64,000 nt of DNA, from positions 1 to 64,000 of the forward strand of contig NZ_JADILJ010000018.1 in NCBI RefSeq assembly GCF_017355185.1, written 5' to 3'. The stretch is from Rathayibacter sp. SD072. Lineage in GTDB: Bacteria > Actinomycetota > Actinomycetes > Actinomycetales > Microbacteriaceae. Shown one piece after another: positions 14,076 through 64,000 of this stretch. Both the position numbers and the translations under genes were made by a program. The stretch's first letter is position 1. Each line of letters starts with the position of its first letter. The notes under the pieces are model-generated. The model was not told where the DNA came from. It worked only from the letters and a program-made list of their open reading frames with translations, and ran no database searches.

Positions 14076-14837
14076 TCACTCCTCGTTCTCGAGCTCGGCG
14101 CGGACCTCGGGAGTGATGTCGAGGTTCGTGTAGACGTTCTGCACGTCGTCGGAGTCCTCGAGCGCGTCGATGAGACGGAACACCTTGCGGGCGGTCTCGG
14201 CGTCGGCCTCGACCTGCAGCGAGGCCACGAACTCGATGTCGGCGGAGTCGTAGTCGATGCCCGCCTCCTGCAGCGCCGAGCGCGCCGGGACGAGCTCGCT
14301 CGGCTCGACGCGCACCTCGAAGCTCTCGCCGTGGTCGAGGACGTCGTCGACGCCGAAGTCGAGGACCGCGCCCAGGACGTCGTCCTCGGTGACGCTCTCG
14401 CCGTGCGGCACGCTGATGACGCCCTTGCGCGCGAAGTTGTACGCGACGCTGCCCGGGTCGGCCATGGTGCCGCCGTTGCGGGTCATGGCCGTGCGCACAT
14501 CGGCGGCGGCGCGGTTCTTGTTGTCGGTGAGGCACTCGACGAGCAGGGCGATGCCGTTCGGACCGTAGGCCTCGTACATGATCGTCGTGTAGTCGATGAC
14601 CTCGCCGGTGAGGCCGGCGCCGCGCTTGATCGCGCGGTCGATGTTGTCGTTCGGGACCGACGTCTTCTTCGCCTTCTGCACGGCGTCGACGAGCGTCGGA
14701 TTGCCCGAGAGGTCGGCTCCGCCGATCTTGGCGGCGACCTCGATGTTCTTGATCAGCTTGGCGAACGACTTCGCGCGACGCGAGTCCTTGATCGCCTTCT
14801 GGTGCTTGGTCGTGGCCCACTTGGAATGCCCGGACAC
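14076..14837 (-). CDS. yebC: YebC/PmpR-family protein
   Basis: The 253-residue protein shows the full YebC pattern: [18 protein letters not shown] at the N-terminus, [28 protein letters not shown], and [22 protein letters not shown]. The family has been described as DNA-binding regulators and, more recently, as factors that help ribosomes through difficult sequences; which applies here is not known. GTG at 14837, preceded by GGGAG, starts exactly at the conserved SGHSKW motif. The frame is open further upstream but the sequence there is repeat DNA. It heads the yebC-ruvCAB group. Confidence 0.96.
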
Positions 14838-14905
14838 GGTGCTCCCTCGGAAAATCGTCGTGTGCGACCCCCGCGGGCGCCGCTGATAGCTGAGCCAGTC
14901 TAATT

Positions 14906-15028
14906 GAGAGCCGGTCCCCGCCCGGCTCTCCGCGGTCGGCTCCCCGAAACGGTCGCGCAGGTGGAGCGTCGTGCGTCCGGCTACGCCGATCCGCTGACAC
15001 GCGGAAAGACGATCCGCCTCGACCGAGG
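14906..15028 (-). repeat. Dispersed 123-nt repeat, copy A (inverted)
   Basis: On the minus strand this segment aligns without gaps to the repeats at 15557-15679 and 62625-62747. It holds a 5-bp core hairpin (TCCGC / GCGGA around 14990-15005) and a 9-bp terminal hairpin (14906-14914 with 14922-14930, GAGAGCCGG arm, 7-nt loop). It lies 69 nt upstream of the yebC start. No gene ends on the appropriate side, unlike the other copies. Confidence 0.75.
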
Positions 15029-15556
15029 CCGGTTTCTGGCTTTCTGGGCCGCCGTCCTGTCTGCAACCGAGGTCGGGAGGGCTCGCGGAATCCGCTCGAG
15101 GCGTCCGGACGGTTCCCGACCTCGGTTGCGGACCACTCAGCAAGCGGAACGAAGGCTGAGCGCGCGGATCCGAGCGCGAATCGCCCGATCGCGTCACGGA
15201 GCCTCACTTCTGACGTGCACCCGGGGATCCCGACGCCGCCCGAGCCGGACGTTCTGTGGGATGACACACGCCGGCAGTCAGGAACGGGCGCAGACGCCAT
15301 CGTGGCCGACGAGCCGTCCTGGCCGAGGTTCTCACGGACGATCAGGCATCATCGCAGACCGCACCGCCGTCCTCGCGGAACCCGTGGTCGTCCAGACAGC
15401 TTCTCCCCGAGAAGTCGTCTCACGCGCTCGGTCAGCAGGCCGACGGCGACCAGCCGGAGCCCCCACCGCCCAGACGCGATGCGGACCCGCCGCTCTGCAC
15501 ACGCGCACTCGACCAGCACGCCCGCGTTCTCGGATCCGCGGTAACCGGATCGCCGC
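15029..15556. other. Gene-free stretch between two inverted repeat copies
   Basis: I see no coding pattern in these 528 bases on either strand. A 16-bp perfect inverted repeat occurs at 15063-15078 and 15114-15129 (GCAACCGAGGTCGGGA), separated by 35 nt, and one CTCGACCAGCA element, like those in the tandem array near 62.5 kb, lies at about 15508-15518. It may be decayed sequence or the interior of a composite repeat. Confidence 0.55.
15063..15129. repeat. 16-bp perfect inverted repeat
   Basis: The arms at 15063-15078 and 15114-15129 are exact reverse complements and would form a hairpin with a 35-nt loop. No gene lies within 230 bases on either side, so it is neither an obvious terminator nor an obvious operator. 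Confidence 0.7.
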
Positions 15557-15679
15557 CCACCTCCGAGCCGAACAGGTGATCCGCGTGCGAGCGGATCGCC
15601 GTAGGCGGACGCAGGACGCTCCACCTGCGCGTCCACGCCGAGAAGCCGACCGCGGCGGGCCGGGCGGGGACCGGCCCGC
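15557..15679 (+). repeat. Dispersed 123-nt repeat, copy B
   Basis: It has the same length as copies A and D, and I count roughly three-quarters identity with copy D. The core palindrome GATCCGC-GTGCGA-GCGGATC is at 15578-15597. The terminal hairpin (15655-15663 with 15671-15679, GCGGGCCGG arm, loop GCGGGGA) directly abuts the stop codon of the glycosylase gene, so it probably also ends or protects that transcript. Confidence 0.8.
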
Positions 15680-16532
15680 TATTTGATCAGTCGCGAGAGG
15701 ACACGGTCCGCGAGGGGCTTCCCGCCCGTCTGGCAGGTGGGGCAGTACTGGAGGGTGGAGTCCGCGAAGATCACCTGGCGGACGGTGTCGCCGCAGACCG
15801 GGCAGGGCTCACCGGTGCGGCCGTGCACGCGCATGCCGAGCTTCTTCTCCTTCTTGAGGTCGGCGGCGTGCAGTCCCTCGGCTCGGCCGAGCGCCTCCTC
15901 GAGCGTGTACCGCAGCGCGGAGTAGAGGCGGTCGAGTTCCTCGGGCGAGAGGGTCGCCGGCTTGAACGGCGACATGCGCGCGACGTGCAGGATCTCGTCG
16001 GAGTAGGCGTTGCCGATGCCGGCGATGCGCGACTGATCGCGGAGGACGCCCTTGAGCTGCGCGCGGCCGGCGGTCGCGAGGATCGCGCCGAGGATCTCGC
16101 GCGTGAAGGCGGGGTCGAGCGGATCGGGGCCCAGTCGCGCGACCCGGTCGACGTCGCGCGGATCGGCGACGATCGACAGGGCGAGGCTCTTCTTCGTGCC
16201 GGCCTCGGTCACGTCGATCCCGGAGCCGTCCTCGAGGATCAGGCGCGCGGCGAGCGGCCCGGCTTCACCGGCGCCGTGGGGCGCTCGGGACGCCAGCGCA
16301 CCCAGCCCGCCCGGGCGAGGTGGAGCAGCACGTGCACGTCGCCGATCGAGAGGTCGAGGAACTTGCCGTGCCGCTGGACGCCGTGGATCGGCTGCCCGGA
16401 GAGGGAGGACGGCGGGATCGCCACCGTCTTGAGCGCCGAGATCGCGAAGACGTCGAGCCGCTCGAGGACGTGTCCTCCGAGGCGCTCGTCGAGATCGCGG
16501 GCGAGGGCCTGCACTTCGGGGAGTTCGGGCAT
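15679..16532 (-). pseudogene. Fpg/Nei-family DNA glycosylase, frameshifted
   Basis: The family removes oxidised bases from DNA. The first part starts with MPELPEVQAL at 16532, keeping the catalytic Pro2 and Glu3, and runs in one frame to a stop at 16239. The second part is in another frame: GPLAARLILEDGSGIDVTEAGTKKSL continues the protein, through SRIAGIGNAYSDEILH to a C-terminal zinc finger with two CxxC pairs (CPVC...CPTC) and an end at 15679. The joint lies at about 16255-16263 in a CGGCCCGG run, where one missing base would restore a single frame of about 284 codons. No internal ribosome start is evident. Both halves are otherwise well preserved, so the shift is either recent or a sequence error. 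Confidence 0.85.
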
Positions 16533-31045: not shown

Positions 31046-31120
31046 TGGTGGGCGATACTGGGATCGAACCAGTGACCTCTTCCGTGTCAGGGAAGCGCGC
31101 TACCGCTGCGCCAATCGCCC
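31046..31120 (-). tRNA. tRNA-Val (GAC)
   Basis: The minus strand folds into a full cloverleaf with acceptor GGGCGAT/ATCGCCC, T-loop GGTTCGATCC and anticodon GAC in the loop of CTTCC-CTGACAC-GGAAG. The discriminator is A and a CCA end is encoded (31046-31048), unlike the other tRNAs in this window. It is the last gene of the three-tRNA unit. Confidence 0.95.
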
Positions 31121-31712: not shown

Positions 31713-31785
31713 GGGCGATTGGCGCAGTTGGTAGCGCGCTTCCTTCACACGGAAGAGGTCATCGGTTCGAGTCCGGTATCGCCCA
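31713..31785 (+). tRNA. tRNA-Val (CAC)
   Basis: Cloverleaf with acceptor GGGCGAT/ATCGCCC, anticodon loop TTCACAC in CTTCC/GGAAG (anticodon CAC) and T-loop CGGTTCGAGTCCG. The discriminator is A; CCA is not encoded (CCC follows). It is closely similar to tRNA-Val(GAC) on the opposite strand, with which it shares the acceptor and anticodon stems. Confidence 0.95.
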
Positions 31786-31790
31786 CCCTC

Positions 31791-59343: not shown

Positions 59344-59430
59344 CCTCGAGGCGAACCGTTGATTCGCGTGCGAGCGGATCGTCGCAGCCGAACGCGAGCA
59401 CACCCCGCAATCGCGGCTCAGGACCGATTG
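59344..59430 (+). repeat. Dispersed repeat, shorter copy C
   Basis: It matches the first half of copies B and D (CCTCGAGGCGAACCG, then TTGATTCGCGTGCGAGCGGATCG in two parts) but lacks about 35 bases of the middle. A 6-bp terminal hairpin (59408-59413 with 59425-59430) contains the pyrD stop codon in its loop. The upstream part, from about 59300, also resembles the flank of copy D. The rest of 59155-59343 shows no gene. Confidence 0.6.
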
Positions 59431-60431
59431 ATCGCCCGGGCCCAGAGGGGGCCCTCGTAGATGAAGGCCGTGTAGCCCTGGACCAGCGTGGCGCCGGCGG
59501 CGAGGCGCTCCCGCACGTCGGCTGCGGTCTCGACGCCGCCGACCGAGATGACGCAGAACGATTCGGGGACGACTCCTCGGATCACTCGGAGGACGGCGAG
59601 CGAGCGCGCGGCCAGTGGCGCGCCCGACAGGCCGCCCGCACCGGCGGCGTCGACGACGGAGGCGGTCGTCTCGAGGCCATCGCGGGACAGCGTCGTGTTC
59701 GTGGCGATGATGCCGTCGAGCCCGAGGCGCACGGCCAGCTCCGCGACGCGGACGACCTCGTCGTCGGACAGGTCCGGGGCGATCTTCACGAGCAGCGGAG
59801 TCGCGTCGGCCGCGTCCTTCACCGCCCCGAGCAGGGGTTCGAGCTTGTCGATCTCCTGCAGGCCGCGGAGCCCGGGAGTGTTGGGCGAGCTGACGTTGAC
59901 GACCAGGTAGTCGGCCAGCGGCGCGAGCATCCGCGCACTGACCAGGTAGTCCTCGACGGCGTCGTCGACGCTGACCACGCGGCTCTTGCCGATGTTGACG
60001 CCGATGACGGGGCGTCCGCCCACGCCGCGGAGGCGAGCGAGCCGACCGGCGGCCGCGCGCGCTCCGCTGTTGTTGAAGCCCATACGGTTGATCAGCGCGC
60101 GATCCGCGACGAGGCGGAACAGGCGCGGCCGGTCGTTGCCCGGCTGCGGACGCGCGGTCAGCGTGCCGACCTCGACGTGCCCGAAACCGAGGGCTCCGAG
60201 CCCGAGGACGGCGGTCGCGTCCTTGTCGAAGCCTGCGGCCACTCCGAACGGGGTGGCGAACCGCAGTCCGAGCGTCTCGACCGAGCGGTCCTCCTTCGGG
60301 AGCGTGAAGCGCCGGACGACGGGTGCGACGATCCCCAGCGCCCGGATGACCGGGAAGGCGAGGTGGTGCGCGCGCTCGGGGTCGAGGCGGCGCAGGACGG
60401 TCCTGAACAGGACCGGGTAGATCGCGGGCAT
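59418..60431 (-). CDS. pyrD: Dihydroorotate dehydrogenase (quinone), class 2
   Basis: The 337-residue flavoenzyme oxidises dihydroorotate to orotate in pyrimidine synthesis and passes electrons to quinone. The N-terminus ([26 protein letters not shown]) is the amphipathic membrane-contact helix of class 2. Motifs: VAAGFDKDATA, NRMGFNNSGA, VVNVSSPNTPGLRGLQ with catalytic Ser, and IATNTTLSRDG. The ATG overlaps the nrdR stop (TGATG). Its stop codon lies inside a hairpin of the dispersed repeat. Confidence 0.96.
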   Translation of the reverse strand: MPAIYPVLFRTVLRRLDPERAHHLAFPVIRALGIVAPVVRRFTLPKEDRSVETLGLRFATPFGVAAGFDKDATAVLGLGALGFGHVEVGTLTARPQPGNDRPRLFRLVADRALINRMGFNNSGARAAAGRLARLRGVGGRPVIGVNIGKSRVVSVDDAVEDYLVSARMLAPLADYLVVNVSSPNTPGLRGLQEIDKLEPLLGAVKDAADATPLLVKIAPDLSDDEVVRVAELAVRLGLDGIIATNTTLSRDGLETTASVVDAAGAGGLSGAPLAARSLAVLRVIRGVVPESFCVISVGGVETAADVRERLAAGATLVQGYTAFIYEGPLWARAINRS

Positions 60432-62226: not shown

Positions 62227-62473
62227 GGCCGCCCCAGTCTACCGGCCGCCCTCCCCGCCCTCCGGCGCTCCTGCCGTGCGAGACCGCTCCGTGAAGGCGA
62301 CCGCGGCCCGCCGCCCGCCACGTCTCGCGCCGAACCCCGGCCAGGAGTGGAACGTCGCCGCCGACGTGCGCCCCCGCCGACGCCCGGTCGACCGTCGGCC
62401 GCTGCGCCGTCCGGCGGGGTACACCACGTCCGCTTCGCAGGCGCAACGGTCTCGATACGCCGCTCCGCGCCTA
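62227..62473. other. Non-coding stretch upstream of hisD
   Basis: No gene is evident. It should contain the hisD promoter, but I cannot point to one. Near 62445-62473 lies a GGTCTCGATACGCCGCTCCG-type stretch that leads into the tandem repeats. Confidence 0.45.
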
Positions 62474-62561
62474 CTCGACCAGCAGAAGGCCCTCACTCGA
62501 CCAGCAGGGAGCCCCCACTCGACCAGCAGGGAGCCGCTGCTCGACCAGCAGGGAACCGCCA
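62474..62561. repeat. 22-bp tandem repeat, four copies
   Basis: The 12-bp core CTCGACCAGCAG occurs at 62474, 62496, 62518 and 62540, spaced by exactly 22 bases, with a variable 10-bp remainder (GGAGCC-rich). It lies between the hisD promoter region and the end of dnaE. Related single motifs occur near 15508. There are no unique spacers, so it is not a CRISPR array. Confidence 0.85.
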
Positions 62562-62624: not shown

Positions 62625-62747
62625 CCACCTCCGAGGCGAACCGCCGATCCGCGTCCCAGCGGATCGCCGTAACCGAACGCACCCCGCTCCCCGGACCGCA
62701 CCCCGTCGCGAAGCCGACCGCGCGAAGCCGGGCAGGGACCGGCTTCG
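62625..62747 (+). repeat. Dispersed 123-nt repeat, copy D
   Basis: Same length as copies A and B. The core palindrome GATCCGC...GCGGATC is at 62646-62665; the terminal hairpin (62723-62731 with 62739-62747, CGAAGCCGG arm, loop GCAGGGA) ends three bases before the dnaE stop codon. The stem sequence differs from copies A and B but stays fully paired. Confidence 0.8.
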
Positions 62748-62750
62748 AAT

Positions 62751-64000
62751 TCAATACAGGCAGTTCGGTCCGAGCAGGCTCTTGAGCTCGCCGAAGAGGT
62801 CGGGGGTGATCCGCACCGGGAACGGCACCTCGAAGATGCGCGCCGTGTCGCCCTTGATGAGTTTCAGTCGCACCTCCGTCGCCCCGGAGTGGCGGATGAG
62901 CACGTCGCTGAGCTGCGAGACCGTGTCCGTCGTCGCCCGGGCCTCGGGCATCGAGACGGTCAGGGGTCCGGAGTCGCCGTCCTGGCTCATCTCGGGGGCG
63001 AAGAGGCTGAACGCGTGCAGGTTCATGCCGTCGTCGCGCATGCTCACCCGTCCCCGCACGACCACGATGGAGTCGTTGGTGAGGGCGGGCGCGAACTCCT
63101 GGTACGCCTTGCCCATGAACATGCAGGTGATCTCGCCGCCGAAGTCCTCGACCTGGATCATGCCGTACTGGTTGCCCGAGGTCTTCGCCATGCGGTGCTG
63201 GACGCTGGTGACCAAGCCGGCCACGACGACGGTCTCGCCGTCGCCGATCGTCTCCGAGACGAGGAGGTCGGCGATCGTGGTGCTGTAGTGCTTCGCGAGC
63301 TCCGTCTCGAGGCCGGCGAGCGGGTGGTCAGAGACGTAGAGGCCGAGCATGTCGCGCTCGAAGGCGAGCTTGTCGCGCTTGGCCCACTCGGGCCGCTCCG
63401 GCACCTGGATCGCGGCCTGCGGCTCGTCCCAGAGGCTGTCGAAGTCGAAGCCGACCTGGCCGTTCGCCTCGTTCCGCTTCTCCCCCACTGCGGCCTCGAC
63501 GGCGTCCTCGTGGATCTCGACGAGCGCACGACGGGTGGACCCGAGCGAGTCGAACGCGCCGGCCTTGATCAGCGACTCGATGGTGCGCTTGTTGGTCGCC
63601 TGCATCGGCACCTTGCGGAGGAAGTCGTGGAAGGTCTCGAACCGGCCCTTCTCCTCCCGGGCCGCGCGGATGCCCTCGACCACGTTCGTGCCGACGTTGC
63701 GGACGGCGCCGAGCCCGAATCGGATGTCCGTCCCGACGGCGGTGAAGAAGCCGATCGACTCGTTGACGTCCGGCGGGAGCACCTTGATGCCCATCCGCCG
63801 GCACTCGTTCAGGTAGGCGGCCATCTTGTCCTTGGAGTCGCCGACGCTCGTCAGCAGCGCCGCCATGTACTCCGCGGGGTAGTGCGCCTTGAGGTAGGCC
63901 GTCCAGTACGAGACCACGCCGTACGCGGCCGAGTGCGCCTTGTTGAAGGCGTAGTCCGAGAACGGCAGCAGGATGTCCCACAGCGTCTTGACGGCCTCCA
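62751..64000 (-). CDS. dnaE: DNA polymerase III alpha subunit, C-terminal part
   Basis: The visible 416 codons are the C-terminal part of the replicative polymerase; the start lies beyond the window edge. DYAFNKAHSAAYGVVSYWTAYLKAHYPAEYMAALL (in pieces) marks the end of the polymerase core, followed by a helix-hairpin-helix region (IESLIKAGAFDSLG), the VSDHPL motif and an OB-fold domain (VVAGLVTSVQHRMAKTSGNQYGMIQVEDFGG in parts). The frame continues upstream of the first internal Met, so no start should be placed at 63917. The protein ends LLGPNCLY, right next to repeat copy D. Confidence 0.96.
   Translation of the reverse strand, partial: EAVKTLWDILLPFSDYAFNKAHSAAYGVVSYWTAYLKAHYPAEYMAALLTSVGDSKDKMAAYLNECRRMGIKVLPPDVNESIGFFTAVGTDIRFGLGAVRNVGTNVVEGIRAAREEKGRFETFHDFLRKVPMQATNKRTIESLIKAGAFDSLGSTRRALVEIHEDAVEAAVGEKRNEANGQVGFDFDSLWDEPQAAIQVPERPEWAKRDKLAFERDMLGLYVSDHPLAGLETELAKHYSTTIADLLVSETIGDGETVVVAGLVTSVQHRMAKTSGNQYGMIQVEDFGGEITCMFMGKAYQEFAPALTNDSIVVVRGRVSMRDDGMNLHAFSLFAPEMSQDGDSGPLTVSMPEARATTDTVSQLSDVLIRHSGATEVRLKLIKGDTARIFEVPFPVRITPDLFGELKSLLGPNCLY

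Follow-up and report, generated by a model that had tools for sequence, protein, structure and literature searches.

A repeat of ~118 nt, found in tens of copies after Rathayibacter gene ends, looks like a new family of gene-end elements

Copies in the window and their anatomy

The window analysed here, a stretch of 64,000 nucleotides from Rathayibacter sp. SD072 (contig NZ_JADILJ010000018.1, positions 1 to 64,000), carried three full copies of an intergenic repeat (A, B and D) and a decayed one (C). With its terminal hairpin (H2) at the right, the element consisted of a 3-bp clamp (H0), an inner hairpin (H1), a linker and H2, together ~118 nt. Copy A (14906–15022, minus strand; 108.7 bits with the covariance model R1, cmsearch) lay upstream of a YebC/TACO1 family gene (14076–14837, minus strand; Pfam PF01709 and PF20772). 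Its H2 (14906–14930) pointed toward the yebC start, an exception to the stop-codon rule described below, and its H1 region, read off alignment A4 at about 14984–15011, had two mismatches. Copy B (15563–15679, plus strand; 109.1 bits, cmsearch) had H1 at 15574–15601 and H2 at 15655–15679, the H2 end abutting the stop codon of a minus-strand gene with its edge at 15679. This gene (15679–16212) encoded the C-terminal half of a formamidopyrimidine-DNA glycosylase (fpg-like; Pfam H2TH and zf-FPG_IleRS). Copy D (62631–62747, plus strand; 105.1 bits, cmsearch), with H1 at 62642–62669 and H2 at 62723–62747, ended 3 nt short of the stop codon of another minus-strand gene (62751–63998, cut by the window edge). 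It encoded the C-terminal part of a DnaE-like DNA polymerase III alpha; from the domain order (Pfam HHH_6 and OB fold) we take it to be dnaE. The decayed copy C (59346–59455, plus strand) was found by R1 (48 bits, E 2.3e-7) and also by a repeat finder. It aligned well in its first half only, with a recognizable H1 half (59347–59395) and no recognizable canonical H2, and it overlapped the 3' end of a dihydroorotate dehydrogenase gene (stop at 59418).

The R1 boundaries were slightly shorter than those of the repeat itself (14906–15028, 15557–15679 and 62625–62747). As the earlier note on this DNA had stated, the three copies aligned over 123 nt without gaps, with 95 (A–B), 88 (A–D) and 91 (B–D) identical positions. 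The H2 stems and the loops it quoted (GCGGGGA, GCGGGGA and GCAGGGA) were exact. All three 9-bp stems, GAGAGCCGG/CCGGCTCTC in A, GCGGGCCGG/CCGGCCCGC in B and CGAAGCCGG/CCGGCTTCG in D, paired perfectly, with outer arms differing between the copies.

Several other features were seen in the window. The glycosylase was split into two ORFs (15679–16212 and 16239–16532), with the C- and N-terminal Pfam domains apart; its orthologues in three congeneric genomes (G003, G007 and G011) were each called as one 861-nt gene. Between copies A and B there was a long perfect inverted repeat (15063–15129, GCAACCGAGGTCGGGA / TCCCGACCTCGGTTGC), one arm of which recurred in two other element-bearing loci (L034, ~10396; L035, ~10342). 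At 62448–62560 a second dispersed repeat, built on GGTCTCGATACGCCGCTCCGCG..CTACTCGACCAGC, was followed by 22-bp tandem copies. CTACTCGACCAGC was present in 74 of the 261 loci examined, many of them overlapping, and often shared its intergenic regions with the element. The 88% complementary arms at 31047–31104 and 31730–31787 coincided with two tRNA genes in opposite orientation.

The covariance model R1 (118 positions, 23 pairs) was built from 15 clean copies (alignment A4), selected among 52 because they had a canonical 7-nt loop and, with two exceptions, a perfect stem. Context, stem and identity statistics were computed on 85 of the 87 R1 matches, excluding the two weakest (E 0.0016 and 0.0068). 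The clamp read AGCC..GGC or AGGC..GCC. H1 had up to 11 bp, with a nearly fixed inner CGC/GCG and loop (GTNNNA) and variable outer pairs. The linker, on the strand that ends with H2, was rich in C (42%) and poor in T (9%), and ended in GCCGACYGCG. H2 began at a fixed position, where 74 of the 85 copies formed 5 bp or more without a mismatch. The commonest stem length was 9 bp (34 of 74), and 48 distinct stems were counted. The loop was GC[AG][AG]GGA in 42 of the 74, the others being longer and GA-rich, for example GACGAGGAACGAGGA. A stem score of at least 5.5 was reached by 59 of the 85 copies vs 112 of 3000 random intergenic windows. Among the 11 copies without a perfect H2 stem, four made up a whole array (C25), and one (L031, 10230) failed only through a misplaced anchor. 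A sequence-only profile gave 52 copies, 31 of them with a perfect stem of at least 7 bp (26 distinct sequences) and 41 with at most one mismatch.

The stems changed in step. In the 87 copies, 20 of the 23 pairs had double changes, with 398 double-change cells vs 114 after shuffling and 59–68 with the partners slid. The percentages of paired cells, 96.5% in A4 (74.3% shuffled) and 95.0% in the 87 copies (70.0% shuffled), are biased upward, because good hairpins were a criterion for entry into A4, and the rows of alignment A5 were found and aligned by the resulting model. Because the model rewards pairing, we made a further count of the outer four H2 pairs, restricted to the 72 copies outside it. 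These pairs formed in 261 of 284 cells, against a shuffled mean of 48.5% and maximum of 54.9% (500 shuffles), and not at the chance rate that would speak against the earlier note. Together with those at one orthologous site (see below), these counts give strong support to the conserved structure proposed there. When the raw MAFFT alignment was given to RNAalifold, however, H2 was missed and no covariation bonus was obtained, and the folding energies of the three window copies were ordinary (z −0.2 to −2.1).

We rejected the idea that the hairpin is part of the target and not of the element. In 1.13 Mb of sequence there were 43 hairpins with a GC[AG][AG]GGA loop and 6 bp or more of stem, and 38 of them lay inside elements; six control loops gave none. 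The other five were intergenic (four, which we read as remnants) or in a gene (one).

Position next to genes and spread among genomes

Further copies, on which the earlier note had made its reading depend, were numerous. Blastn with copy B found 45 places in this genome, and R1 had 61 matches (E ≤ 0.01) in the 3.88-Mb draft. At E ≤ 0.001 there were 75 matches in G003 and 51 in G011. Head-to-tail arrays were frequent, with unit periods of 111, 121, 124, 128 and 140 nt. A coding function was rejected, since these periods are not all multiples of 3. On the G003 chromosome (3.94 Mb), the block 1.68–3.29 Mb, 41% of its length, contained 59 of the 75 matches and 32 of the 44 distinct sites (p 2e-5, the block borders having been picked after inspection); in G011 the picture was similar by eye, in origin-based coordinates.

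Genes were called with a purpose-made codon-usage caller on 57 loci (1.13 Mb). Out of 53 arrays, 47 had their H2 end facing a stop codon, at a distance of up to 60 nt in 45 of the arrays and up to 15 nt in 21 (median 19 nt). From the other end the median distance to the next gene was 323 nt, and in only one of the 53 arrays did this end lie within 60 nt of any gene edge. When intergenic regions of 100 nt or more were sorted by the orientation of the flanking genes, an element was present in 20 of the 48 convergent ones, 22 of the 215 tandem ones and 1 of the 75 divergent ones (convergent vs the rest, Fisher p 2.3e-8). These shares are inflated for all types because 19 of the 57 loci were picked for holding copies. 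In tandem regions, 22 of the 27 arrays had H2 pointing toward the stop, where chance would predict one half (p 0.0015). The six start-facing arrays comprised four at the yebC site, one in L031, next to the start of a presumably dnaG-like gene (named from its protein), and one in G002 (L157). From the synteny given by the fpg neighbour we infer that the four represent the same yebC site in four species, copy A of the window included.

The stop codon next to the element read TGAG[CT]T in 9 of 44 neighbours, compared with 15 of 978 stops overall. ACAACTCAG, the reversed reading of this motif, came after H2 in 4 of 20 hairpins from other genera. The two could be a shared tag or target.

Mismatches in the stems carried information on the strand. 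On the strand ending with H2, G.T outnumbered A.C in H1 by 35:6 distinct region-column cases (p 5e-6, an optimistic value, as copies share ancestry and two adjacent pairs dominate), with 16:5 in convergent and 19:1 in tandem regions. H2 was without a clear strand preference (14:6, p 0.12). The tolerance of G.T in H1 points to one folded strand. The sign of the bias is opposite to that expected from selection on the neighbouring gene's own mRNA, and a correction of palindromes would give equality. Motifs resembling a −10 box were scarce, with three TANNNT in the 120 nt before 55 first units, so no promoter belonging to the folded strand can be seen. It would then be a read-through or antisense transcript, or single-stranded DNA.

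R1 matched the site after dnaE in 11 of the 15 congeneric genomes, with a contig end cutting one of these matches; G001, G004, G008 and G009 had none. In G008 another repeat took the place of the element. In G001 we read the site as a hairpin-like remnant followed by a transposase-like start near the contig end. Twelve aligned copies from the 11 genomes had 25 double-change cells vs 8.8 after shuffling and 0–1 with the partners slid. The H2 stem at this site was CGAAGCCGG/CCGGCTTCG in G000 and G012, CCGAGCCGG/CCGGCTCGG in G010 and G002, and GCGAGCCGG/CCGGCTCGC in G005, G006 and G014; 10 of the 12 stems were perfect, with one broken pair each in G003 and G011. Other orthologous sites were occupied more patchily. 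At one convergent site G007 had two inverted copies with a common stem, and G012 a single bare hairpin with that stem, as would remain if the sequence between the matching arms had been lost. At a second site, all six genomes had a typical terminator hairpin after the gene, and five had the element beyond it. At the orthologous sites compared, the element is common to several species. A non-systematic look at them gave no clean filled/empty pair with a target duplication. Among the 85 copies, identity between different loci of one genome did not exceed 0.89 and that between tandem neighbours reached 0.99, so dispersal looks old and local duplication ongoing.

At first the element appeared to be restricted to the genus. 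R1 matched 15 of 15 genomes of the same genus and none of 22 of the same family or 23 of the same order, and an independent DNA pattern of the element matched 20 stretches, all from Rathayibacter records. A genus-only occurrence, suggested by the R1 counts (15/15 vs 0/45), was dropped after the survey of 299 family genomes with R1 and the search with a second model. In surveys of more than 40 genomes filters were stricter and 10–61 candidates were scored per genome, so copy numbers there are lower bounds and low-copy genomes may be missed. R1 matched the six Rathayibacter genomes drawn and, weakly, at least six genomes of two other genera. Among the 20 matches listed, 12 covered only the 3' part of the model. 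In these two genera the linker and H2 were as in Rathayibacter, preceded by a different hairpin, which also covaried.

The second model, R2, was made from copies of other genera only (alignment A7: 14 of 20 rows, excluding near-duplicates and partial matches, plus L195, a weaker copy added by hand). It matched at least 19 of the 299 family genomes, in at least 9 of 85 genera, and recovered window copies A and B with E 5.6e-9 and 6.8e-9. Among 394 genomes of the class it matched this genome only. Six of the 19 positive genomes had a single match (E 1.9e-15 to 7e-5), and in some of these cases H2 stood alone, attached to a different body. The core of H2 by itself, GCCGGGC[AG][AG]GGACCGGC, was found in 32 of the 299 genomes, with a maximum of 39 per genome; the reversed pattern reached at most 2. 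With genes called by the Rathayibacter codon table, a stop codon lay no more than 60 nt from H2, on the same side, for 8 of 14 hairpins in the genus g78, for 2 of 3 in the genus g74 and for 14 of 21 in the genus g12. In g12 the body ending in H2 was of a third type, and its inner sequence CCGCGTCAGCGA would recall the tip of H1. In another genus, five bare H2 hairpins with 44-nt spacing stood between two genes (L259, G185:C1:2198002-2198194).

Interpretation and rival explanations

We tentatively favour, short of calling it probable, a composite, REP-like, non-coding structured repeat of intergenic regions that acts at the 3' borders of genes. With structure, copy number, position, polarity, tandem growth and relatives in other genera observed, its role as a gene-3'-border element is what we infer. 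Where H2 lies directly past a stop codon, the strand ending with it points into the antisense strand of that gene. When folded, this strand would most likely stop or degrade transcripts that enter the gene from behind. H2, readable from both strands, may in addition cap the 3' end of the gene's own mRNA. Copies would now multiply mainly by local tandem duplication. An element acting on backward-entering transcripts fits the polarity, the enrichment in convergent regions, the strand and the C-rich linker.

The serious rival is mobility as single-stranded DNA. The element may be non-autonomous and moved by an unknown or lost enzyme that would recognise the hairpins folded by the conserved strand, inserting after stops with a fixed polarity, like REPs with RAYTs; we consider this possible and, on balance, doubtful. 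It would account for the strand-specific tolerance of G.T next to so few promoter-like motifs, for a free stem with a common loop, and for the patchy occupancy of orthologous sites. Inverted pairs, tandem arrays and the joining of the terminal hairpin to different bodies in other genera fit as well, and TGAG[CT]T at the neighbouring stops would be a possible target or tag. The search for an enzyme argues against it. The earlier note had suggested looking for a RAYT-like Tnp_REP transposase, and Y1_Tnp (PF01797; RAYT, IS200/IS605) was absent from all 15 Rathayibacter genomes in a search that was positive in 5 of 14 controls, on which ground we rejected RAYT mobilisation in the present genomes. 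No HUH-type motif (NH[VIFLY]H) was found in the 34 loci examined for it (14 + 20). The ceiling on identity between loci speaks against recent dispersal, and the sites compared, in a non-systematic look, gave no filled/empty pair with a target duplication. An explanation at the level of DNA seems unlikely to us, whether the palindromes serve a DNA-binding protein or supercoiling where convergent genes end, or template switching at replication corrects imperfect palindromes without selection. Gyrase-binding BIMEs are a parallel for palindromes at convergent gene ends, and the convergent enrichment, the lack of a clear strand bias in H2, and the convergent site with a bare hairpin in one species and two inverted elements with that stem in its relative agree with it. 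Palindrome correction, however, expects equal leftovers of G.T and A.C, which the H1 ratio contradicts, and the common loops, the conserved linker and the fixed polarity to stops are left unexplained.

It is very improbable that the copies are ordinary intrinsic terminators that resemble each other by chance. Their GC-rich hairpins do stand right after stops, and a lax scan scored copy B as terminator-like on the plus strand (one match), but the 8 nt following 74 hairpins held a mean of 1.16 T and the conservation extends over a 118-nt body and linker. At one locus the element lies beyond a separate, typical terminator, which stays where the element is absent (G002). The terminator suggested in the earlier note finds no support as a classical intrinsic one, given the T count, and neither does its RAYT link, whereas its kept structure stands; features that go beyond it are a second, inner hairpin that covaries, the constant orientation toward stop codons, the copies in tandem and the related elements of other genera. 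We give equally little credence to a family of trans-acting small RNAs processed from these loci, whose conserved loops would pair with targets such as ribosome-binding sites: the recurrence of GC[AG][AG]GGA and GACGAGGAACGAGGA-like loops on variable stems would suit it, and the scarcity of promoter-like motifs and the tens of copies, tandem arrays among them, would not.

Along with the gene-border reading we entertain a bolder one, rather speculative and doubtful as it stands. The Microbacteriaceae would have a family of strand-specific guards of gene 3' ends, in which a common free-stem hairpin with the loop GC[AG][AG]GGA sits on exchangeable structured bodies with constant polarity toward stop codons. 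Its folded C-rich strand would block backward transcription or serve a mobiliser of single strands with gene ends as its target.

Textbook terminators are few in high-GC actinobacteria. With its conserved shape and near-constant orientation at stop codons, some of them of housekeeping genes, the repeat offers dozens of natural replicates in each genome for studying how these bacteria delimit their gene ends. The element would also be a REP-like system without RAYT, in a phylum outside those named for tagged REPs in the consulted part of PMC3733652. From a loop that stays common while the stem varies, we predict that a protein or an RNA partner reads the loop.

Comparison with known systems

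With Rfam 15 at gathering score, the window gave only four tRNAs and five element-bearing loci gave no match. On 14800–15800 at E ≤ 5 there were five sub-threshold matches, all on another hairpin. A known Rfam RNA was rejected, as the element had no match above threshold in the window or the five loci.

The attC sites of integrons keep a hairpin shape over a variable sequence, lie just past the stop codon and work as a single DNA strand; they have the core sites RYYYAAC/GTTRRRY and an integron integrase. We liken the element to them by resemblance only, and the units here are not gene cassettes. MIRUs are actinobacterial intergenic units of ~50–100 bp, which form head-to-tail arrays at gene borders and carry a small in-frame ORF through the units. 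The element shares the tandem intergenic arrays, with slightly longer units (111–140 nt). It differs in its covarying hairpins and in periods (121, 124, 128 and 140) that are not multiples of 3 and keep no frame. The MIRU of mycobacteria is mentioned in PMC2267715, in the part consulted.

In the open literature, with subscription journals mostly outside this scope, we found no description of the element. A possible exception is a ~75-nt palindromic repeat of Rathayibacter genomes, with 15–99 copies per genome, given in the accessible part of PMC6113626. It shares the genus and the tens of copies and is known there by description, without sequence; it may be this element, a part of it, or the CTACTCGACCAGC family. 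Candidate REPs appear for three Actinomycetota genomes, none of them Rathayibacter, in the portion of PMC12306157 consulted.

The nearest known kind is REP/BIME. These hairpins are dispersed in intergenic regions, mostly downstream of genes, and their stems show complementary changes; they often supply or touch stop codons and form pairs and arrays, and families tagged with CGTC lack a dedicated transposase (PMC3733652, in the sections consulted). The phyla named there for the GTAG and CGTC tags exclude Actinobacteria, a word absent from the main text. The element is likewise a dispersed intergenic hairpin mostly downstream of genes, as the distances of the arrays to stops show (45 of 53 within 60 nt). 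In contrast to REPs of 20–40 bp, it is a composite (118-nt model) of H0, H1, H2 and a conserved linker, with fixed polarity to stops; bare units of H2 size occur in other genera. The 4 nt before H2, scored at its 5' foot only, were CGCG in 58 and TGCG in 20 of 87 copies, with neither GTAG nor CGTC listed, so the REP tag is not at this foot. As neither this tag at the 5' foot of H2 nor a RAYT in the 15 genomes was found, we do not file the element under REP/BIME and regard these repeats as its closest known counterpart.
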